Source: Nostoc sp. T09 (GTDB lineage: Bacteria > Cyanobacteriota > Cyanobacteriia > Cyanobacteriales > Nostocaceae). From it: a stretch of 35,928 nucleotides of DNA. Shown in pieces: positions 3,259 through 35,928 of this stretch. Under the pieces are notes generated by a model. The model was not told the DNA's origin. It was given only the letters and a program-made list of their open reading frames with translations, and did not search any database. The stretch is taken from positions 1 to 35,928 of the forward strand of contig NZ_MTAV01000073.1 of assembly GCF_002154695.1 (NCBI RefSeq), given 5' to 3'. Position 1 is the first letter of the stretch. Each line of letters begins with the position of its first letter. The position numbers and the translations under genes are program-made.

Positions 3259-4551
3259 TCAGATGGGTAATTCAATAACGAACTCTAGACCTTCACCAAG
3301 CGATGAATGGTGATATAGTTTGCCATGATGATTGTTGACCACAATTTGATAAGCAATCGATAAACCTAGCCCTGTGCCTTTACCTATGGGTTTTGTTGTA
3401 TAGAAAGCATCGAATATTTTTGTTTGCTCTGCTTCAGTAATTCCTGAGCCATTGTCGGCAATTCTAAGAATAACTTTCTCTTCAATTGTCTCTGTTTTAA
3501 TGCGAATCACACCTGGGTTATTGGTAATATCCTGGAAATTTTTATTTTTTTGTGTTTCTTCAATGGCATCGAGAGCATTACAGATCAAATTCATAAAAAC
3601 CTGATTGAGTTCGCCTGGGTAGCACTCAACAAGCGGCAAATCTCCATATTCTTTGATTAGTTGAATGGCAGGACGATGAGCATTTGGCTTGAGCCGATGA
3701 CCAAGAATTAATAGCGTGCTTTCTATTCCTTCATGCAGGTTAGCTAGTTTCTTACCTACCTCTCTGTGTCGAGAAAACTTATTCAATGATGATACAATTT
3801 CTGTAACACGATCTGTACCAAGTTGCATAGATTGAAGAATTTTAGATAAATCATTTAACAAATAAGTCAGATTAGTATCTTGAATCGCAGTTTGAATTTC
3901 AGTAGGTGGATTGGGCAGATGCTTTTGATAGAGATTGAGTAAATCAACTATCTCCTGAACATACTGTTTCACAAAATTTAAATTACCAGCTATAAAATTG
4001 ATAGGATTGTTTACTTCATGGGCAATTCCTGCTGCCAATTGACCTAAGGTTGCTACCTTCTCTGCTTGGATGAGTTGGGTTTGAGTTTTTTGTAGTTCGG
4101 CGTTTTTGGCAATCAAAGTTTTCGTCAAATTTCTCAGCTTCAAGTGATGTTCAATCCGAACTAATACTTCTTCATGCTGAAAAGGTTTAGTAATGTAGTC
4201 TACAGCTCCTAATCGCAATCCTTTAACTTTATCGGCAGTTTCGGAAAGGGCAGTCATAAAAATGACGGGGATATCCTCAGATCGAGGATCGCTTTTGAGA
4301 TGTTGACACGTTTCAAACCCATCCATACCCGGCATCATGACATCAAGTAAGATTAAGTCGGGTAAATGCTCGTTATTTAATTTCTGAAGGGCTTTCTCAC
4401 CACTGCGAACTGCCCAAACTTCAAAGCTAGACTCATCCAAAAAGCTGGATAAAACTTGTAAGTTGGCAGGGTTATCATCAACGACTAAAATAATTCCTCT
4501 AGCAGGGTGGCGATCGCAAAAATGTTTTTCGTCTGGGATTCTGACTGTCAT
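3259..4551 (-). CDS. Response-regulator/histidine-kinase protein (REC-HisKA-HATPase)
   Basis: This is a 430-residue soluble protein. Residues 20-140 are a receiver domain with acidic pair D25-D26, phospho-acceptor D70 (LILLDVMMPGMDGFE) and the conserved KPF lysine. A short coiled coil leads to an H-box (GQLAAGIAHEVNNPIN, H178), and the ATPase domain shows N (NLICNALDAI), G1 (DNGSGI) and G2 (GKGTGLGLS) boxes. The input receiver suggests it is phosphorylated by a partner and then signals through its own kinase domain. Its ATG overlaps the stop of the upstream hybrid kinase gene (ATGA, 4548-4551), so the two are translationally coupled and the hybrid kinase is the obvious partner. No DNA-binding output domain is present. 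The target of the relay is not visible in the window. Confidence 0.92.
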   Translation of the reverse strand: MTVRIPDEKHFCDRHPARGIILVVDDNPANLQVLSSFLDESSFEVWAVRSGEKALQKLNNEHLPDLILLDVMMPGMDGFETCQHLKSDPRSEDIPVIFMTALSETADKVKGLRLGAVDYITKPFQHEEVLVRIEHHLKLRNLTKTLIAKNAELQKTQTQLIQAEKVATLGQLAAGIAHEVNNPINFIAGNLNFVKQYVQEIVDLLNLYQKHLPNPPTEIQTAIQDTNLTYLLNDLSKILQSMQLGTDRVTEIVSSLNKFSRHREVGKKLANLHEGIESTLLILGHRLKPNAHRPAIQLIKEYGDLPLVECYPGELNQVFMNLICNALDAIEETQKNKNFQDITNNPGVIRIKTETIEEKVILRIADNGSGITEAEQTKIFDAFYTTKPIGKGTGLGLSIAYQIVVNNHHGKLYHHSSLGEGLEFVIELPI

Positions 4552-6992
4552 ACTATTTCTAGCTCATATTGATTCAAAAAGCTGAGAATTACATCTTCGT
4601 CAAATTGCCTTGCTAGTTGTCGCAATTGGTGAGCAAAGGTTGCAAAAGTCGAATCTGTTGCCTCTAGTCGATCGGCCCACTTGAGAATGGCATTGAAATT
4701 ACCTTTATTTGCTAATGCGATCAGTTCTGCCAACACTTCGGCAGAAGGAGGAATTAATGAATCTGATTGACTATTAGCTATAGCTAAATTATTAGCTGTT
4801 TCTTCCTCAGACTGAGACTGCTTGTAAATCCATCTCAAACCTAAATGGCGTTCTAATTGTTGTAGTAATTCATCTACCTGTACAGGTTTGCTGAGAAAGT
4901 CGTTACCGCCTGCTTGCAGACTGCGATGTTGGTCGGTTTCAAAGACACTAGCGGAAGAGACGATAATTTTGACATCTTGGATATCTGGAGTGCGACGCAG
5001 GTATTGAATCAATTCAAACCCATCCATTTCCGGCATTAGTAGGTCTGTAATAATCAAATCTGGTTTAAGCGCAATTGCTTTTGCTAAACCTTCCTTACCG
5101 TTGGTAGCTTCAATTACATTAAAACCTAGTGGTTGCAGCAGGTTTGTAATTACTGTGCGATTCTCCCAGCGATCGTCCACCATCAAAATTGTGCGAGGAC
5201 TATCCTCAAAACCAATGATTTGTGATGCTGATGCCGCCATCGCTGATTGTACCCATTCGCTGGCTTCTGGTATTTCTAACTCAAACCAGAAAGTGCTGCC
5301 CCGCCCAACTTGACTTTTGACATGGATATCGCCACCCATCATTTGTACCAACTGGCGAGTAATAGCTAAACCAAGCCCTGTGCCTTCGGTCTGACGCTTT
5401 TTTTCACCTACTTGCTCAAATGGGAAGAAAATCTTGTTCAGTTCTGCTGGTGCTATACCAATTCCTGTATCTTCGATACAAAAGCGAATGCAGTATTTCT
5501 GCGTCTGCCCATTATAGAAAGGTTGAGCGATCGCTTCAATTTTGAAGGTGACTTGACCCTCATCCGTAAATTTAATGGCATTTCCTAGCAGGTTCAACAG
5601 TACTTGACGCAACCTTTTGACATCGACATTCACTCCTGTAGGCAAATTACTCGCGGGTTCATAGGCAAACAAAATACCCTTTTGTTCTGCCCGAATCTGA
5701 CAAATTTCTGCAATTCCCTGGAGAAAAGACGGGAAATGAATATCATCTGGATGCAGTTCGAGTTTTCTCGCTTCAATTTTTGAGAGATCCAATATGTCAT
5801 TAATTAAGGTCAGCAGATGAGAACCACATTGTTCAATGGTGTTGACGTGGTATTGCTCTTTTTCTAATAAAACTTTGGAACGCAGCAAAATTTGAGCGCA
5901 ACCCAAAATGCCATTCAAGGGTGTTCGCAGTTCATGACTCATGTTGGCTAAAAATTCGCTTTTGGCACGGTTTGCCGTATCAGCCGCTGCTTTGGATTTT
6001 TTCAGTTGCGCCTGTTCAAATGCTTGCACCTGCCACAAAACAGTAATCATGGTGACTGTCAGTCCTCCCATAATTAGAGCAATCACATCGAGGAATTGCA
6101 AGCGAGATTCAATATTTTGGCGCGGAATCACCAAAGCCAAAGACCAATTGGCTTCTTGCAATGGAACATAGACAACATATTTTTTAGTGCCGTCAATTTC
6201 CATCAACTGAATTCCCTGTTGTTTGTTTACCATCTGCTGGGCGATCGCACTCAAACTCCGATCTGCGATTTTTAGCAGGCTGGGTGCAGGTTTTTCTACC
6301 GTTGACATTAACGCTGCGTTAGGATGGACAATTGCTTGTCCTTGGGAATTGAGGGCGAAAGCATAGCTGTTATTGCCGTAGTGCAGCGAGTTGACAACCT
6401 TAGTAATGCGATCGACTTTCACATTGCCTTGAAAGACCCCAATTGGCGAACGATCAGTCCCAGGATTGGGCCATATTGGTGTGGCGATCGCAATTAAGGG
6501 AATTCCTGTGGAACGGCTGATAAAGGGATCGGAAATATTGCTTTGTCCTGCTAGTGCTTTTTGAAAGTAGTCTCTATCCTTAACATTTTTGGTTGACCGA
6601 CCAACTTTAGTATTAGAAAACGAACCATTCGGGATAACTATTTGGAAAAAGAAAAATTTATTGATTCGCTTGACTTCTGATTGTAAATATGGTTCTGCTA
6701 CAGACCAGTCTAGGGAGCGTACAGTTGAAGTATTAGCGAGGGTTTGTACCTCCACCTTGCGGACGTGTAACCACTCTTCAATTTCATCAACTCCTCTTTG
6801 TACCTGTTGAAAAGCGTTTTGTTTCAAATCTGCTAGCGCCATGTTGCGAGCAGCTAGATATGTGCAAAAAGCAGAAATACTTACAACAATAGTAGTGCCG
6901 CCGAGAACAAATCGAAGCAGTAAATTTCGTGACCAATTTTTTTCACTATCATATTCCAATGAACTTGAGTCAAGCCTTCTCAAAAGCTTCAT
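4548..6992 (-). CDS. Membrane hybrid sensor histidine kinase (dCache-like sensor, HisKA, HATPase, REC)
   Basis: This 814-residue protein has membrane helices at about residues 25-47 and 301-322 that bracket a roughly 250-residue extracytoplasmic region. Features such as KDRDYFQKALAGQ and IGVFQGNVKVD are typical of double-Cache ligand sensors. The cytoplasmic part carries H353 in FLANMSHELRTPLNG, an ATPase domain (N box NLLGNAIKFTDEG, EDTGIGI, GTGLGLAIT) and a receiver near 603-720 (ILMVDD...DLIITDLLMPEMDG). The last 80 residues form an unassigned helical tail, common in cyanobacterial hybrid kinases. The signal is likely a small molecule outside the membrane, by family analogy. It is the first gene of a two-gene operon with the REC-kinase. 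The ATG at 6992 has no good Shine-Dalgarno sequence, but the basic N-terminus just before helix 1 supports it. Confidence 0.93.
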   Translation of the reverse strand: MKLLRRLDSSSLEYDSEKNWSRNLLLRFVLGGTTIVVSISAFCTYLAARNMALADLKQNAFQQVQRGVDEIEEWLHVRKVEVQTLANTSTVRSLDWSVAEPYLQSEVKRINKFFFFQIVIPNGSFSNTKVGRSTKNVKDRDYFQKALAGQSNISDPFISRSTGIPLIAIATPIWPNPGTDRSPIGVFQGNVKVDRITKVVNSLHYGNNSYAFALNSQGQAIVHPNAALMSTVEKPAPSLLKIADRSLSAIAQQMVNKQQGIQLMEIDGTKKYVVYVPLQEANWSLALVIPRQNIESRLQFLDVIALIMGGLTVTMITVLWQVQAFEQAQLKKSKAAADTANRAKSEFLANMSHELRTPLNGILGCAQILLRSKVLLEKEQYHVNTIEQCGSHLLTLINDILDLSKIEARKLELHPDDIHFPSFLQGIAEICQIRAEQKGILFAYEPASNLPTGVNVDVKRLRQVLLNLLGNAIKFTDEGQVTFKIEAIAQPFYNGQTQKYCIRFCIEDTGIGIAPAELNKIFFPFEQVGEKKRQTEGTGLGLAITRQLVQMMGGDIHVKSQVGRGSTFWFELEIPEASEWVQSAMAASASQIIGFEDSPRTILMVDDRWENRTVITNLLQPLGFNVIEATNGKEGLAKAIALKPDLIITDLLMPEMDGFELIQYLRRTPDIQDVKIIVSSASVFETDQHRSLQAGGNDFLSKPVQVDELLQQLERHLGLRWIYKQSQSEEETANNLAIANSQSDSLIPPSAEVLAELIALANKGNFNAILKWADRLEATDSTFATFAHQLRQLARQFDEDVILSFLNQYELEIV

Positions 6993-29411: not shown

Positions 29412-30914
29412 TTAGTCATTGTGGGCGTGTTCAAACTCATAAACGTAAAATAATCGGCTCAATTTCTGCAACAAGTATCCTACCACTGCAAATAGCGTTG
29501 CGCCTGCAAGCGTCCACCAGAATCCGATAGGGGGAAAAACCGTTAAAAGCGGTATCGGTATGTGATTTACAGATGCTAGGGCAGCCTTTACCGCTATAGC
29601 CCTTGCATCAATAATTACACCTACAAACAAACAAATTACAGCCAACCCATAAGCTAATACATAAAGGCGTTTAATATTGTTAAGAGCATCTTGACAAACA
29701 GAGCAATGTTGAGTGTGAGTTGTCCAGACATCAAAAAGCTTTTGCTTATCTAGTTCTGCGGGGGAAAGATTAGAACTATGCCCACAAGCCCAAGGGATAC
29801 TACCGCCAGCTTTTTTTTCTAACCACTGGCGAAATGTAATAACCATTTTGTCTTGAGGATTGGGTGTATAGACTGCATCCAGCCATCGGCTATTTTGCCG
29901 TTTTGCTAGAATCTTCTGTTGGTAATGGAGAAATACCAAATCTTGATGTAAAAATAAGGATGATAAAACATGACCTAGCCAAGTTGGCAATGGTAGACCA
30001 AATATTCCTAATCCTTTGGGTGTTTTTCCGGACTCATTCTTAACCAATACTTGGCAGCCAATATGACGACACCATCCTGGACGAGTTGGGGTAGCATATA
30101 ATGCCAGAATGAGTTTGCCACCATCAACAGACGTTGAGACAATTCTCATATGGCAGGGTGGTTGAAAATCGTGTATCGCTTGCTTAATTGTGGGTGCTGT
30201 CGGTGTGATTTCAAAGGCAAACCCTTCTTGAGTAGACATCTGCTTGATGGAAAGCATGTCATAGTAATTAGCATCTTTATAGCGATCGCCTACAATACCG
30301 TGGTGGGAGACAGGCACATGGGCAGGGTCAGCAACATTCTCCATAAAAAAGTCCCATCCGTAAGCTAAATCACGGATATTCCAAAACAAATGTCTTACTT
30401 GAAGTGACTTATCCTCAAGTTCTGGAATAATTCTTGGTGTTCTCAATTGACTTTCAAGCTGTGCTTCTTGTCCTGACTCAGCCCAAACCCACAGTAGACC
30501 TTGAAGTTCTTGTGTTGGATAGCTAACAGCACATGACCTAGAGTTTGAGCAGTGCACAGAGGCTGTTTGCTTATCTTTTGACTGGGGAATACTCACACAG
30601 TTACCCTGCGAATCAAAACGCCAAGCGTGGTATGCACATAAAAGTGTGCCATCAGACTCAACACGCCCTTCAGAAAGAGGAGCTAGTCGATGCGGACAAC
30701 AATCTTCAAAACAAGACCATTTGTTAAAATTGTCTCGCCACAGAACAAGATCCTTTCCTAGTAACTGTATTGCGTGTGGGCGAGATGGATCTAAGAAATT
30801 TACAACTGCTACCGGATACCACTGCTTTGTCCATTGGAATATTTCTTCATCTTGTTGATGAAACTGTCCAATAGCGTTATTCATATCACCTTGCAAATTG
30901 CTTTTAGTAGTCAT
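29412..30914 (-). CDS. Pheophorbide a oxygenase-like Rieske non-heme oxygenase
   Basis: This 500-residue protein has a Rieske [2Fe-2S] centre C73-P-H75 ... C93-A-Y-H96 (CCPHRLAPLSEG, LLCAYHAWRF). The mononuclear iron motif is N193-x2-D196-x2-H199-x4-H204 (ENVADPAHVPVSHHG). A CxxC (C404-S-V-C407) lies before two C-terminal membrane helices (about 417-440 and 458-485). This layout matches the PaO/Tic55/PTC52/chlorophyllide-a-oxygenase group, in which the CxxC is linked to thioredoxin control. Plant PaO opens the ring of pheophorbide a; cyanobacterial members are poorly understood, so the substrate is inferred only as a possible tetrapyrrole. ATG at 30914 is used; a second ATG at 30884 with AAGGTG upstream is a plausible alternative. 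Confidence 0.9.
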   Translation of the reverse strand: MTTKSNLQGDMNNAIGQFHQQDEEIFQWTKQWYPVAVVNFLDPSRPHAIQLLGKDLVLWRDNFNKWSCFEDCCPHRLAPLSEGRVESDGTLLCAYHAWRFDSQGNCVSIPQSKDKQTASVHCSNSRSCAVSYPTQELQGLLWVWAESGQEAQLESQLRTPRIIPELEDKSLQVRHLFWNIRDLAYGWDFFMENVADPAHVPVSHHGIVGDRYKDANYYDMLSIKQMSTQEGFAFEITPTAPTIKQAIHDFQPPCHMRIVSTSVDGGKLILALYATPTRPGWCRHIGCQVLVKNESGKTPKGLGIFGLPLPTWLGHVLSSLFLHQDLVFLHYQQKILAKRQNSRWLDAVYTPNPQDKMVITFRQWLEKKAGGSIPWACGHSSNLSPAELDKQKLFDVWTTHTQHCSVCQDALNNIKRLYVLAYGLAVICLFVGVIIDARAIAVKAALASVNHIPIPLLTVFPPIGFWWTLAGATLFAVVGYLLQKLSRLFYVYEFEHAHND

Positions 30915-31035: not shown

Positions 31036-31137
31036 CAATACGGTTCAGTTAAGAAAATTCCTCTGTGGAGGCAAGGGAACAGGGAACAGGGAACAGGGAA
31101 CAGAGGCAGACAAAACAGGCTTATCTGAACTGTATTG
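31036..31137. mobile_element. 102-bp non-autonomous element (MITE) with 10-bp target duplication
   Basis: The ends are inverted repeats: CAATACGGTTCAGTTAAG on the left, and on the right the reverse complement CAATACAGTTCAGATAAG, matching at 16 of 18 positions. The element is flanked on both sides by AAATATAGCC (31026-31035 and 31138-31147), a perfect direct duplication of the target. It has no coding capacity and contains a heptamer tandem repeat. It lies in the 355-base gap between the Rieske gene and the HlyD gene; the rest of that gap has two HIP1 sites close together (31218-31262) and a short protein-like relic at about 31150-31255. Confidence 0.75.
31074..31101. repeat. Heptamer tandem repeat (AGGGAAC)x4
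   Basis: Four perfect copies of AGGGAAC sit inside the small element. Heptameric short tandem repeats are characteristic of heterocystous cyanobacterial genomes. Confidence 0.9.
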
Positions 31138-31269: not shown

Positions 31270-32751
31270 TCACAAGTTTGTAATTAACCTAGCTCTCCTA
31301 AGCATGTATTTCAAGACTGTCTCTCGTCGCGAAATAATATCAGCTCTGCCTTGCATTCCCGGCTGAATAGTACACTGATGGTTGCTTCTACCTAAGGACA
31401 AGGTATCGGGCAATATTGTCACCTCGTAGAAAGAAGAATTGGTAACGTTGGGCAAAGCCTCACCCTTTTGAGATTTAATGGTATCTTCAGAAATGTGACT
31501 AACCACACCTTTAAGAGTACCGTAGTCGGGATAGGGACAGGCAGAAACCTGCATCTGTACCTGTTGACCTTTTTCTAACTGGCTTACATCTTCAGGTGAA
31601 ACAGCAGCTTTGATGACTAAGGGAGCATTGCTAGGGACAATTTGAGCAATTTCCTCGCCTATACGCACCGATTGGCCTGGGTTTCGTAAATTTAGCCCAG
31701 AAATTATCCCATCTTCGGTAACTGTAATCTTGGTTTGGCTGAGGTCGTTTTCCACTTGTTGTAGTTCTTTAGTATCCTGTTGCAGCTGATTCCGCATTTG
31801 AATTCGCTGCTGAAACAGTGCTTCCCATTCTCGGTTGAGGGTGGCGAGAGTGGCTTGACCGCCAGCACTTTCTTGGGCAATACTCTGTTTAGCGATCGCA
31901 ACTTCTGCATTACTAGGGTTAAGAGCAGCTTGAGTGCGTTGCAGTTTGGCTCGCATTGCGGCTACGGCTTGTTGTTGCTGGGCAATAATTTGTTGTTGCG
32001 CCTCAATACTGGCTCGTCGCATCTCAACTGCTTGTTGTTGTTGCACTACCTCTAACTGCACTTCTTCTAATTGATTGAGAGATAACGCTCCTGCTTGCAC
32101 TACCTTTTGATAGCGATCGCGTTTAGTTTGGGCTGCTTTCAACGCCGCTTCTGTCGATTGCAGATTAGCACGAGATGAGCGTAGCTCGATTTGTGCTTGA
32201 TACCATTCTTTTTCTGCTTTGCTTAAGTTCGCCTGGGCTTCTTCAACATCCGCCTTAGCAGTAATTTGTTGATCTCGATAATTGCGTTGGGCGCGATTGA
32301 GTGCGGCTTGAGCCGAATTCACCGCACGATTTTTGCGTTCTGTTTCTGCTTTAATTTGACGATTTAGTGCCTTAATTTGAGCATCGATTTGCAGTAGTTG
32401 CAATTGCGTCTGCTGGATATTGCTTTGCAATTGGCTTTTTTTCGTTTGCAGGCGAGAGTCATCAATAGTGGCTAGTACATCTCCCTTTTTCACCGCCTGA
32501 TTTTCATTTACAAAAACGTTTGTAATTTGACCTTCTGTCGCTGCTTGCACTAGCCGTAATTCTCCCGTAGGCCGGACAGTTGCCTGTCCTTTAACGGTTA
32601 CCTTATATTCAATCGCAGAAGCAAGTGCGATCGCTCCCCCAACACCACCAACAAGTACCAAACTGCCTAGTGTTACCCAAGGACTAATCGGCGGGAGAAA
32701 ATCATTGCTTTGAACTTGGGGTAGAGAGTTTGGGTTTAAGTAGCTAACCAT
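31270..32751 (-). CDS. HlyD-family periplasmic adaptor of a peptide exporter
   Basis: This 493-residue protein has one membrane helix near residues 27-46 (PWVTLGSLVLVGGVGGAIAL). A lipoyl-like half follows (GQATVRPTGELRLVQAATEG...VKKGDVLATIDDS), then a long coiled coil at about 85-330 rich in Gln, Ala and Leu. The second lipoyl half (KITVTEDGIISGLNLRNPGQ) and a beta-barrel end (GMQGRADIISRRETVLKYML) complete the layout. This is the membrane-fusion protein of a type I secretion complex, linking the inner-membrane ABC exporter to an outer-membrane TolC-like channel. It begins 20 bases after the ABC exporter gene on the same strand, so the two are co-transcribed. The TolC partner is not in the window. 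Confidence 0.93.
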   Translation of the reverse strand: MVSYLNPNSLPQVQSNDFLPPISPWVTLGSLVLVGGVGGAIALASAIEYKVTVKGQATVRPTGELRLVQAATEGQITNVFVNENQAVKKGDVLATIDDSRLQTKKSQLQSNIQQTQLQLLQIDAQIKALNRQIKAETERKNRAVNSAQAALNRAQRNYRDQQITAKADVEEAQANLSKAEKEWYQAQIELRSSRANLQSTEAALKAAQTKRDRYQKVVQAGALSLNQLEEVQLEVVQQQQAVEMRRASIEAQQQIIAQQQQAVAAMRAKLQRTQAALNPSNAEVAIAKQSIAQESAGGQATLATLNREWEALFQQRIQMRNQLQQDTKELQQVENDLSQTKITVTEDGIISGLNLRNPGQSVRIGEEIAQIVPSNAPLVIKAAVSPEDVSQLEKGQQVQMQVSACPYPDYGTLKGVVSHISEDTIKSQKGEALPNVTNSSFYEVTILPDTLSLGRSNHQCTIQPGMQGRADIISRRETVLKYMLRRARLITNL

Positions 32752-32771
32752 GACAGTTTTTTTAGTAGAGA

Positions 32772-34997
32772 TTAGCGAATGCTGGTTGAAGAACTTCCAT
32801 TGAGATGAAAACTGGCAGGATTTTTGGCAAAACCATTTACTGATAAATCAACACCACCGAGAAAGTCTAAATGCTCACCAGGTTGATGAGATAGAGCTTC
32901 TGGAGAACCTTGAATTTTTAATTGTCCTTGCTCTAGCATGACAATCCAATCGGCTTGCTGGATGACTTTGGGGCGGTGGCTAATCAAAATTGTGGTTTGA
33001 CCTTGGCGGTGAGTAAGCAACTGGTTTAAAACTTGAGCTTCACTAACTGGATCGAGTGCGCCAGTAGATTCATCTAAAATCAACACTGGTGGGTTATTGA
33101 CAATGGCTCTCGCGATCGCTAATCTCTGCTTTTGACCACCAGAAAGATTAGCGCCAAATTCCCCTAAGACAGTTTGATATTTATCGGGGAGTTTGCTAAT
33201 AAACTCATCAGCCCCAGCAATCTCGCAAGCTTGCACAATCTGCTCAAAGCTAATATTCGGCGAACCTAAACGAAAGTTTTCCATAATCGACCGACTCCAA
33301 AAGTGTGCATCTTGGGGAACTAGCACCACTTGTTGTCGTAGACATTCTAAAGAAAGGTCTTCCAAGTTATAAATACTGAAGCGAATATTACCAGACTGAA
33401 GCTGATATAAACCTGCAATCAATTTAGCCAAAGTACTTTTACCGCAGCCAGATTTACCAATTAAGGCAATCACCTTACCGCCAGGGATAGTGATGGAGAA
33501 ATCTTGCAACAAGTCAACTCTGCCTGCATGATGAAAGTTGAGGTTGGTACAGGTGATGCCTGCGTTGCTTTTAATTGTCACCCAAGGCTTTTGACTGTTA
33601 TCTAAAGTTTCTGGAGTAGCTTCAATAACTTCCGTGAGGCGTTGAGTAGCGGTTTTGGCACGAGTGAATTCATCAACAAAGTCGATAGTAGTTTCAATAA
33701 AAGCGGTAAAGTTAGCATTCATACTATTAAATGCTAGTAACATCCCAATAGTTAATTCCTGATGAATCACCAGAGTACTGCCGAACCACAGCAAGGCAAT
33801 ACTACCGATGCTGGAAACTAAGTTTGAGAAGATACCGTTGATAATACTAATTTGAATAGTGCGGAAGGTAAAGTTAGCAAGGCGACTAAATCTAACTTGG
33901 AATTCTTCCCAGAATTGGGGAGCAGCCGCAGTAGTTTTTAGGGTAATCGCGCCTTTGAAAGTTTCGACCAAAACCCCTTGGTTTTCGGCTGATAAGACCA
34001 AAACACTGCGAATCTTTTGCTGTAGGGTGGGTAAGAAAGCCACTGTAGAGAGAGTCATTAAAAGAGCGATCGCACCAGCCAAAGCTGTGAGTTTTATACT
34101 GTAAAACAGCATGAAACCTAGGGAAACTAGGGCGATAAAAAGTTGGCTAGGTAAACTAACAACGGCTTGAGAAATTAACTGATTAATTTGTTGAATATCT
34201 TCTAGGCGACTAACAATTTCGCCACTGCGCCGAGATTCGTAATAACTTAAAGGTAAGCGTAAAATTTGCCGTCCAAATTCAAAAATTAGCCCTAGTTGCA
34301 GACGTTGAGCAAAGTGAGCGATCAGATTTGATTGCGCTAATCGCAGGCTACTGCTAACCAAGCGCATGATAATCACTGCAATAGCAACACTAGTTAGAAG
34401 TTGCATATCTCCGCGAACTAGCACATCATCAGTCAGGATTTGCAGCAAAAATGGAGAAGCGAGGGAGAGTAAACCTAGAACTGAGTTAAGCAACAAAGTT
34501 TGGACAACAATGGCGCGATATGGCCAGACACGCTTAAGGAAGCGCCCAAAACCGCCAATTTTATTTTTTTCATCTTCCTGAGAAAAAAAGCGGACTGGAT
34601 CTGGTTCGAGGAGAAGCATTACTCCATCTGTCCACGCTTCTAGGAGCCACTTTTTTTCTAGATAACGGATACCGACACCAGGGTCAGCAACAACGTATTT
34701 ATTGCCTCGCTTGCCATATAAAACCACCCAATGATAGCCTTTCCAGTGGATAATCGCTGGTAAAGGAATAGTTTTTTCGTTAAAAGCTTCCAGAGGTAGT
34801 TTAACTGCTCGTGCATTAAAACCAAGGCTCTCAGCGCCTCGCTTCAAGCCTAGTAATGTAGTTCCTTGTTGTCCAGTTCCTACACTTTCTCGAATGCGCT
34901 TAATAGTGAAATTTTTACCGTAATATTTGGCAATTGAAGCAAGACTTGCAGCACCACAGTCTTCTTCGCTGTGTTGTTTAACAATTTGGTATTTCAT
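32772..34997 (-). CDS. C39 peptidase-containing ABC exporter (PCAT) for double-glycine peptides
   Basis: This 741-residue protein has three modules. Residues 1-130 are a C39 cysteine peptidase with all catalytic residues: Q8, C14 (EEDCGAASLASI), H89 (GYHWVVLYG) and D105 (VVADPGVG). Residues 155-440 are the exporter membrane domain. Residues 475-710 are the ATPase with GKSGCGKSTLAKL, LSGGQKQRLAIARA, LILDESTGALDP and the ISHRPK switch. PCATs cut a leader after Gly-Gly and export the released peptide. Because the cysteine is intact this is not an RTX-type exporter, whose equivalent domain is inactive, so the two RTX proteins in the window are not its expected cargo. The adjacent precursor gene at 35182 is the natural substrate. 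Confidence 0.95.
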   Translation of the reverse strand: MKYQIVKQHSEEDCGAASLASIAKYYGKNFTIKRIRESVGTGQQGTTLLGLKRGAESLGFNARAVKLPLEAFNEKTIPLPAIIHWKGYHWVVLYGKRGNKYVVADPGVGIRYLEKKWLLEAWTDGVMLLLEPDPVRFFSQEDEKNKIGGFGRFLKRVWPYRAIVVQTLLLNSVLGLLSLASPFLLQILTDDVLVRGDMQLLTSVAIAVIIMRLVSSSLRLAQSNLIAHFAQRLQLGLIFEFGRQILRLPLSYYESRRSGEIVSRLEDIQQINQLISQAVVSLPSQLFIALVSLGFMLFYSIKLTALAGAIALLMTLSTVAFLPTLQQKIRSVLVLSAENQGVLVETFKGAITLKTTAAAPQFWEEFQVRFSRLANFTFRTIQISIINGIFSNLVSSIGSIALLWFGSTLVIHQELTIGMLLAFNSMNANFTAFIETTIDFVDEFTRAKTATQRLTEVIEATPETLDNSQKPWVTIKSNAGITCTNLNFHHAGRVDLLQDFSITIPGGKVIALIGKSGCGKSTLAKLIAGLYQLQSGNIRFSIYNLEDLSLECLRQQVVLVPQDAHFWSRSIMENFRLGSPNISFEQIVQACEIAGADEFISKLPDKYQTVLGEFGANLSGGQKQRLAIARAIVNNPPVLILDESTGALDPVSEAQVLNQLLTHRQGQTTILISHRPKVIQQADWIVMLEQGQLKIQGSPEALSHQPGEHLDFLGGVDLSVNGFAKNPASFHLNGSSSTSIR

Positions 34998-35134
34998 ATT
35001 GATTATCGATGCTTAATTTTATATTTAATTTTTATGATTAATATATCTTTTTTAATCAATATGCATTTAATAAAAGAGTAAAAGTTAAGGATTAAGAATT
35101 TTATATTTATCCTTACCTTTTACCCTGAATAGTC

Positions 35135-35153
35135 AAGTATTACGCTAATACTT
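35135..35153. other. Perfect hairpin between precursor and exporter genes
   Basis: AAGTATTA and TAATACTT form an 8-bp stem with a 3-nt loop, 29 bases after the precursor stop and 138 before the exporter start. It could partly end or protect the precursor transcript, so that precursor mRNA outnumbers exporter mRNA. There is no U-tract on the minus strand. Confidence 0.4.
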
Positions 35154-35181
35154 TTGTGGCTATGCCAATGAAAACATCTGA

Positions 35182-35370
35182 CTAGTTAGTAGTAGTAGTA
35201 GTGCAGGTTGTCATTTTGGGTTGGCCGTTGAGCCTATATGTAGTGGTACAAACCTGTGTTGAAGCACCGCCACTTATAGCTTCTAATTCAGACTCCTTTA
35301 GTTCATACGCTGAAATAACAGCCAATTCAGTATTGTTTTCTGCCAATTGTAAATGCTGTTCTTTAGACAT
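35182..35370 (-). CDS. Double-glycine leader peptide precursor with Thr/Cys-rich core
   Basis: The start is set at 35370 (MSKEQHLQLAEN), because GGAG lies eight bases upstream; a start at 35400 would add ten residues without an SD. The 62-residue peptide has a 35-residue leader with the classic ELxxxELxxIxGG pattern (ELKESELEAISGG), then a 27-residue core beginning ASTQVCTTTY. The core has two cysteines (core positions 6 and 21), nine or more threonines, and ends in five Thr and Asn. It lies just upstream of a C39 exporter and HlyD gene on the same strand, so it is very likely cleaved after G35 and exported. No lanthipeptide synthetase or other modifying enzyme is visible; the product may be a disulfide-bonded peptide, or be modified in trans. 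Its function (bacteriocin or signal) is unknown. Confidence 0.85.
   Translation of the reverse strand: MSKEQHLQLAENNTELAVISAYELKESELEAISGGASTQVCTTTYRLNGQPKMTTCTTTTTN
35188..35202 (-). repeat. (ACT)5 trinucleotide repeat at the end of the precursor gene
   Basis: Five perfect ACT codons encode the C-terminal Thr run. Strand slippage here would add or remove threonines without breaking the frame. Confidence 0.9.
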
Positions 35371-35928
35371 GATTTTTCTCCTTTGTTTACAGAAATTCAA
35401 AATATCTAGCAGTCATTTTTTTCAAAAGGGTAAGCCAATACGGCTAATTAACCCTAATTAATTGGGATAATGTAAGGTCTTTTAAAAGCCAGATTTTCAT
35501 CTGAACCACAGCTTGCTTATAGATTAGTCAGCGCTCAGTTTTAAGCCTGGATTAAGCCTTGGCAATGTGGTTAACAAAATTGAACTTAGCTCGCTTGCTT
35601 TACCTGTTTGGTTTTGAACCCTTTCATCAGAGTTAATGGGGTAGTGTTTTTTGATTTATGCACTTGTCTCCATGTACAAGCTGTTGTTTTAAAAAAAAAT
35701 AGCTACAACATTTGTCAGCGTTAGGTTATAGCTATTAATCTTTAATTCAAGAAAAGTTTACAAAGTGCGTTTGGATAGCAATCCTATCTGGATTGTGAAG
35801 GGATATTCACTCTTATACCAATTCACGAAAATCGTGATACATATAGATTTCGCGTAGGGGTTTAGCATTGCTCATACGTGTCAACTTAATGTGAAACCCT
35901 TTTGGTTGACAAGGTTTTGTCCTCATCC
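35371..35928. other. Promoter-side gap of the peptide cassette, with repeat at window edge
   Basis: No gene over 20 codons with a credible start was found. The sequence just upstream of the precursor is AT-rich and should hold its promoter, but I could not fix -10/-35 boxes. TCACGA/TCGTGA (35823-35837) is a small palindrome. The last 90 bases (from GTAGGGGTTTAGCATTGC at about 35854) look like multicopy Nostoc-type repeat or an insertion-element margin. Confidence 0.35.

Follow-up and report, generated by a model that had tools for sequence, protein, structure and literature searches.

An exchangeable cargo slot for a Thr/Cys-rich export module and a promoter-like element shared with a sigma-like gene in Nostoc sp. 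T09 and its relatives

A stretch of 35,928 nucleotides from Nostoc sp. T09 (here called the window) carries a gene for a 62-aa precursor together with a C39 exporter and an HlyD-type adaptor. The favoured reading, which is given a probability of about one half, is that these genes form a peptide-export module in an exchangeable cargo slot, that the slot would be driven by a sigma-like factor and that the secreted core would be a bacteriocin-like disulfide hairpin. The gene organisation itself (precursor, exporter and HlyD) is already known in kind as group III of Wang et al. 2011. What is new here is (i) the swapped cargo in front of closely similar exporters and (ii) a 53-bp element that stands before the cargo and also faces a sigma-like gene. 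No description of an exchangeable slot or of the shared element was found in the available portions of the open-licence literature searched. In the following, loci, genomes and contigs are designated by L, G and C, and G000 is the genome of the window.

Precursor, exporter and adaptor

The module is encoded on the minus strand and consists of the following features:

31270-32751, minus strand: HlyD-type adaptor, 493 aa (TIGR01843, Pfam)
32772-34997, minus strand: C39 peptidase-containing ABC exporter, 741 aa (Pfam, motifs)
35182-35370, minus strand: precursor gene, 62 aa, with GG leader and 27-aa Thr/Cys core (ORF; homologue comparison)
35185-35265, minus strand: core, 27 codons, C-X14-C, NG midway, Thr tail of five ACT codons (sequence)
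35266-35370, minus strand: predicted leader peptide, 35 codons, ISGG end (cleavage point expected from the C39 exporter family)
35378-35383, minus strand: AAGGAG ribosome-binding-like site, seven bases ahead of the precursor ATG

An earlier note had described precursor, C39 exporter and HlyD adaptor in order on one strand, and the three ORFs are located accordingly; in the ORF listing, the precursor starts with ATG at 35370 and its stop codon ends at 35182. The catalytic residues C14, H89 and D105 of the exporter are intact, as had been noted, and are accompanied by Q8 and the motifs of the nucleotide-binding domain (Walker A at 514, LSGGQ at 618 and Walker B at 638). Pfam matches to Peptidase_C39 (1.3e-37), ABC_membrane (2.4e-32) and ABC_tran (3.3e-32) complete the composition of a PCAT, in which a C39 domain with catalytic Cys/His/Asp is combined with TMD and NBD. 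The adaptor matched TIGR01843 at E 1.3e-51, but its 175.9 bits fall short of the curated cut-off (208.65); it exceeded the cut-off for Pfam HlyD_3. Eleven places with a C39 domain were counted in the genome. Between the HlyD gene and a Rieske gene, the heptamer AGGGAAC is present in 4.3 perfect tandem copies (31074-31103); the latter gene (29412-30914, minus strand) adjoins the module and encodes a Rieske / pheophorbide a oxygenase-like protein. Two-component genes for a dCache hybrid kinase and a response-regulator kinase occupy 3259-6992 (minus strand).

The part of the precursor after GG35 comprises 27 residues including 11 Thr and 2 Cys, which bears out the Thr-dominated core with two cysteines of the earlier note. 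Its computed monoisotopic mass is 2922.35 Da in the reduced, unmodified state, and the disulfide form would be 2 Da lighter. No curated family cut-off was passed by the precursor in Pfam or NCBIfam, where the best matches were sub-threshold, and the CTB family bacteriocin model NF038167 scored 13.5 bits against a cut-off of 32, which leaves the precursor outside that family. The earlier view is thus supported in part. It holds for a complete module with an unmatched precursor; a new kind of module is not supported, as group III of Wang et al. 2011, in its available text, covers the gene organisation and LanM and radical-SAM clusters have exporters of the same lineage. Neither the window nor any of four loci had an Rfam match at gathering thresholds. 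One ORF in the window and one across 100 resampled windows carry a leader pattern that was composed after the precursor ORF had been seen; a real precursor is better backed by a homologue beside an orthologous exporter in a second genome than by this chance estimate.

The earlier note had staked its reading on homologous precursors beside related exporters. One was found, in one other genome only: in Calothrix membranacea FACHB-236 (G016; L004/L026), a precursor 66-67% identical to that of the window is encoded just upstream of the orthologous exporter. Common to both precursors are C-X14-C, YRLNGQ, a Lys and a TCTTTTT Thr tail, and in both genes AAGGAG stands at seven-base spacing from the ATG. 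The frame is kept, and the core (dN 0.345, dS 0.488) changes more than the leader (dN 0.146, dS 0.418), with few sites underlying either pair of values. When 217 family genomes were scanned at E<=0.01, the precursor was detected in its own genome, in G016 (67%) and weakly in G194 (E 0.0018, 33% identity, query 3-53), where the match sits in a LanC-like cluster. This cluster (L005, 1456-3066) contains a LanC-like gene and four GG precursors, most of which have paired Cys at a distance of 12-13 residues and, near the end, a stretch rich in arginine (RRSRR). A two-precursor profile run against 388 order genomes, a sample from a larger group in which G016 was absent from the matches, recovered the own genome and weak partial matches in G444 (model positions 13-41) and G091 (23-50). 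With tblastn, L026 alone gave a match at E<=0.01 among the exporter loci (best 80 of 356), and across 176 sequences the best matches beyond the window and G016 locus copies were 2e-5 or weaker (L005, L002, L142, L036, L143, L013 and L007). There was no confirmed match in viral contigs and no match at E<=1 in plasmids.

The cargo slot in front of the exporter

Exporter residues 1-470 were used as query on genome contigs, which yielded 356 relatives, and the best 80 were taken on. ORF clustering of these 80 loci revealed a constant exporter, an HlyD gene in most loci and varying genes ahead of the exporter. Exporters that are 91-94% alike over residues 1-470 come with differing cargo in one slot, including LanM, radical SAM proteins and other bare precursors. 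LanM is the cargo in 16 of the best 80 of 356 relatives (the LanM of L025 scored 1091.9 bits with TIGR03897). Family search was applied to two candidate loci, L027 and L039, and confirmed a radical SAM protein in each; L028 has bare precursors of Cys-rich and Gly-rich composition. The listing of small GG ORFs covers L025-L061, a subset of which was listed a second time.

In close relatives, the slot occupies the interval from a sigma-like gene to the exporter start codon, and its borders can be placed by pairwise comparison. Between L027 and L026, the left flank, with the sigma-like gene and two more genes, shows identities of 96.6% and 98.8%, the cargo that follows is unrelated, and homology is back from the exporter start at 92%. 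The same succession was obtained for L025, which has a LanM, and L026, with 96.9% in the left flank, unrelated cargo and 91.1% once the exporter begins. Beyond HlyD on the right side, no similarity of at least 60 bases was found among L025, L026 and L027. DNA similarity to the window begins at most 8 bases from the exporter start codon for 17 of the 19 compared loci; the exceptions are L036, where it begins 12 bases before, and L026, which has the same cargo and extends upstream. These comparisons make a slot with exchangeable cargo and a fixed exporter boundary a well supported reading of the sequences.

An exporter tree was built from 32 rows, namely the window and 31 of the 80 loci (L040, with a partial exporter, and L057-L104 were left out). 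L026 groups with L025 (LanM) and L027 (radical SAM) at 100/100, and the window with L028 and L035 at 80/64, within a wider group of six at 94/94. As L026 and the window belong to different exporter groups, their common precursor family is represented on two branches of the exporter tree, and the starred branches of the tree force two changes for the precursor cargo of the window. For all cargo labels together, 8 changes are needed, compared with a mean of 14.3 after shuffling. The flanks of L026 and L027 (97-99%) are more alike than their exporters (92%), which suggests that exporter and cargo may be exchanged together.

The 53-bp element and the sigma-like gene

Upstream of the precursor, the window contains three further features:

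35613-35665, minus strand: shared promoter-like element, 53 bp (recurrence across loci)
35632-35661, minus strand: bipartite core of the element, GCATAAAT-N15-CATTAAC (sequence comparison)
35813-35889, no strand assigned: sequence close to the contig end, with similar copies (72-76%) in L054 and L067

The element recurs in L025-L028, L031, L032, L034 and L041, which supplied seeds for an element HMM, and no further locus was detected by this HMM at E<=1 among the exporter loci (best 80 of 356). The first seven of these loci are exactly those with sigma-like gene 9 (7/7). L041, which contributed one of the 13 HMM seed copies, has the element but no sigma-like gene in the fetched stretch, and its sole match to the shorter pattern falls inside the exporter.

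Searching the exact bipartite pattern gave 17 matches in 14 of 217 family genomes, and a reversed-pattern control gave 0. Fourteen of these matches belong to 11 genomes in which a close sigma orthologue is likewise present; these 14 precede lanthipeptide precursors (7), the window-type precursor (2) and signal-peptide-like protein genes (5), the last class being read from the sequence by eye. The remaining three, in G034, G068 and G069, differ in sequence, belong to genomes without a close sigma orthologue and are taken as unrelated, though they are counted in the 14/217 and in the Fisher table. Genomes with the exact pattern and genomes with the sigma gene overlap in 11 cases (table 11/3/3/200, Fisher p 1.3e-13), a p-value that serves only as a guide because of shared ancestry and the presence of HMM seed strains among the test loci. 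As element and sigma gene mostly lie in one locus, the co-occurrence partly reflects common descent. In G133, G193 and G160, among the 14 sigma genomes, variants only were found and the exact pattern is absent. At E<=3e-4, the element HMM matched all 14 close sigma loci and none of the 16 fetched loci with distant paralogues (28-35% identity). A second copy facing the sigma-like gene was detected at E<=3e-4 in 10 of the 14 loci and at E 0.011-0.019 in L147, L150, L152 and L154; in L156-L159, another gene lies between the second copy and the sigma-like gene.

Loci with another sigma paralogue (cluster 18) have a different element, GCATAAAC-N10-ATCGTAGA, which shares GCATAAA with the first one. 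It is present in three of five cluster-18 loci (L029:1515 and 2233, L033:2012 and L039:3390), absent from the other two and found in 0 of the other 75 loci. One copy of the window-type element (G016:C75:76437-76469, L141) is situated ahead of two signal-peptide-like protein genes, and genes similar to these two come after element copies in G014 (L139) and G060 (L132).

In the genome of the window, two further element copies were located on contig C118 between a GG-leader ORF and the sigma-like gene; after the latter come genes for DUF1822 (1e-82), CHAT-CHASE2 (3e-12 and 8e-67) and DUF928 proteins. The CHAT domain is presumably caspase-like. This gene order fits L025-L028, and C118 therefore most likely abuts the right end of the window, an adjacency drawn from synteny: the own sigma cassette is on a separate contig, and in L025-L027 a single stretch holds both cassette and slot. 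The stretch at 35813-35889 may be a dispersed repeat and may explain why the assembly breaks here. The GG-leader ORF (L125, G000:C118:24-251, minus strand) sits at the end of the contig, is preceded by an element copy and had no Pfam match at E<=0.1; the part after its GG we take to resemble the start of a PII (GlnB) protein.

Close orthologues of the sigma-like gene (at least 70% identity) are found in 14 of 217 family genomes. The own protein looks sigma-70-like. It matched TIGR02937 at 4.1e-9 with 36.3 bits, below the cut-off of 42.9, and Sigma70_r4 with 17.8 bits at a cut-off of 24.1, for which the L026 orthologue scored 25.6. A profile search of PDB sequences returned SigF (2.9e-6) and FliA (2.5e-5) in two separate stretches. 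The fold model of the protein has a mean pLDDT of 74.6 and a pTM of 0.48, and Foldseek gave no match to it at E<=0.001. The recurrence of the element with this gene makes a link between the two a good inference, in which the sigma-like gene product would drive the element.

Proposed mechanism, alternatives and known systems

In the proposed mechanism, the CHASE2-CHAT sensor would activate the sigma-like factor, which would transcribe its own gene and the slot from the 53-bp element. The exporter would then cut the precursor after GG35 and secrete the 27-aa core jointly with HlyD and a TolC-type channel whose gene lies elsewhere. Outside the cell, a Cys41-Cys56 bond would close a beta-hairpin with an NG turn and the Thr tail. 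AlphaFold2 on the two-row precursor alignment (mean pLDDT 55.8, pTM 0.23) paired strands 38-44 and 53-59, and the register can be read as setting Cys41 opposite Cys56. This register and the conserved mid-core NG favour a disulfide hairpin, which the core may form. The most likely role of the core would be that of a narrow-range, bacteriocin-like competition peptide; hairpin and competitive role are both plausible. A wider model is put forward tentatively: a CHASE2-CHAT sensor and its own sigma may control an autoregulated slot that retains its promoter and exporter but is loaded with different ammunition (lanthipeptide, radical-SAM peptide or bare disulfide hairpin) from strain to strain, with paralogous sigmas reading a common GCATAAA half-site and distinct second half-sites.

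The peptide might instead be a matrix, adhesion or signalling peptide, comparable to the GG-motif EbfG proteins of Synechococcus elongatus, and no bacteriocin. EbfG and its exporter PteB (PMC4997328) provide the precedent in the available text, and the element is also found ahead of signal-peptide-like protein genes. The replacement of cargo and the fast evolution of the core look more like conflict than structure, which is an indirect argument. This alternative is somewhat unlikely.

A second doubt concerns the element, which might be bound by a different regulator or serve as a homology tract for the recombination of cargo. Twelve of the 14 exact matches in sigma genomes lie within about 8.5 kb of the sigma gene, and the 353 aligned bases upstream of the precursor that are common with L025 (71.7%) fit recombination. 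On the other side, the bipartite spacing is fixed, copies face both ways, a different sigma paralogue is accompanied by a different element, and the L141 copy in G016 is on another contig. A role other than that of a sigma target is regarded as doubtful.

It is unlikely that the core is a class II lanthipeptide, in which a LanM from another place in the genome would dehydrate the Thr residues and link them to the two Cys. The Thr-rich core with two Cys would suit such a product, many exporter kin serve LanM clusters, and G016 has two LANC-like genes in LanM-sized frames (1095 and 1080 aa). The genome-wide search for LanM proposed by the earlier note did locate one in the genome of the window, on another contig (L107, G000:C108:5000-20500). 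This only LanM of the genome is placed with a separate exporter of its own and five tandem, similar long-leader precursors, which we take to be Nif11-like. The precursor of the window had no NHLP or Nif11 model among its four NCBIfam matches at E<=1. In both genomes with the window-type precursor, moreover, the slot is without the LanM of a class II lanthipeptide cluster (window ORFs; relative L026).

That the module is a decaying LanM cluster, with the enzyme lost and the precursor drifting, is very improbable even though LanM is common in the slot of relatives, because the precursor is unlike their lanthipeptide precursors, the exporter is intact, and frame, Cys spacing, YRLNGQ and Thr tail are kept at about 20% DNA divergence.

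The favoured reading of a sigma-driven, exchangeable export slot can be set beside five known systems. With EbfG/PteB, compared by description, the window shares GG-motif small proteins and a C39 exporter; the role reported in the available text for S. elongatus is in biofilm (PMC4997328). CTB family bacteriocins (NF038167) are likewise short cyanobacterial GG precursors, whereas the precursor of the window is under the cut-off. The own genome has 15 matches to this model, of which nine are over the cut-off, on G000:C54, C104 and C97 (L006-L013). In Nodularia, the available text (PMC9846622) reports induction of CTB-family bacteriocins under phosphate starvation.

Group III of Wang et al. 2011 (PMC3140520) combines a short exporter (C39-TMD-NBD) with HlyD. 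The window likewise has a short C39 exporter, HlyD and a GG precursor, with no LanM or extra ABC protein alongside, in a neighbourhood cut on the left by the contig end. In the available part of the Results of that study, group III is presented with no mention of a sigma cassette or a shared promoter element, and some cyanobacterial precursors are grouped as 'other' and unlisted. From group IV (LanM), the window differs by a slot without LanM on the same exporter lineage. Group IV exporters are scattered among clades III and V+VII in the available text (PMC3140520), which gives exporter sharing between cargo types a coarse precedent.

The sensing part resembles the EACC2-caspase systems described in eLife 2021 (PMC8195603), in which, as far as the available text extends, an ECF sigma and DUF1822 accompany a caspase-domain protein that has variable parts, CHASE2 among them, and which are proposed to sense stimuli and alter transcription. 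C118 likewise has CHAT, CHASE2, DUF1822 and a sigma-like gene; the neighbourhood of a caspase-like protein, variable sensor, putative sigma and DUF1822 is therefore present, the sigma part having the scores given above. The available text of that account names no sigma targets and no peptide-export slot. If the reading proposed here is true, the sigma factors in such proposed conflict systems would gain identified targets, which would become directly testable, and the proposed caspase-like sensing cassette would be tied to a concrete output, secreted peptides. It would further show how one exporter lineage takes chemically different peptides and would provide a DNA element for finding further small secreted peptides.
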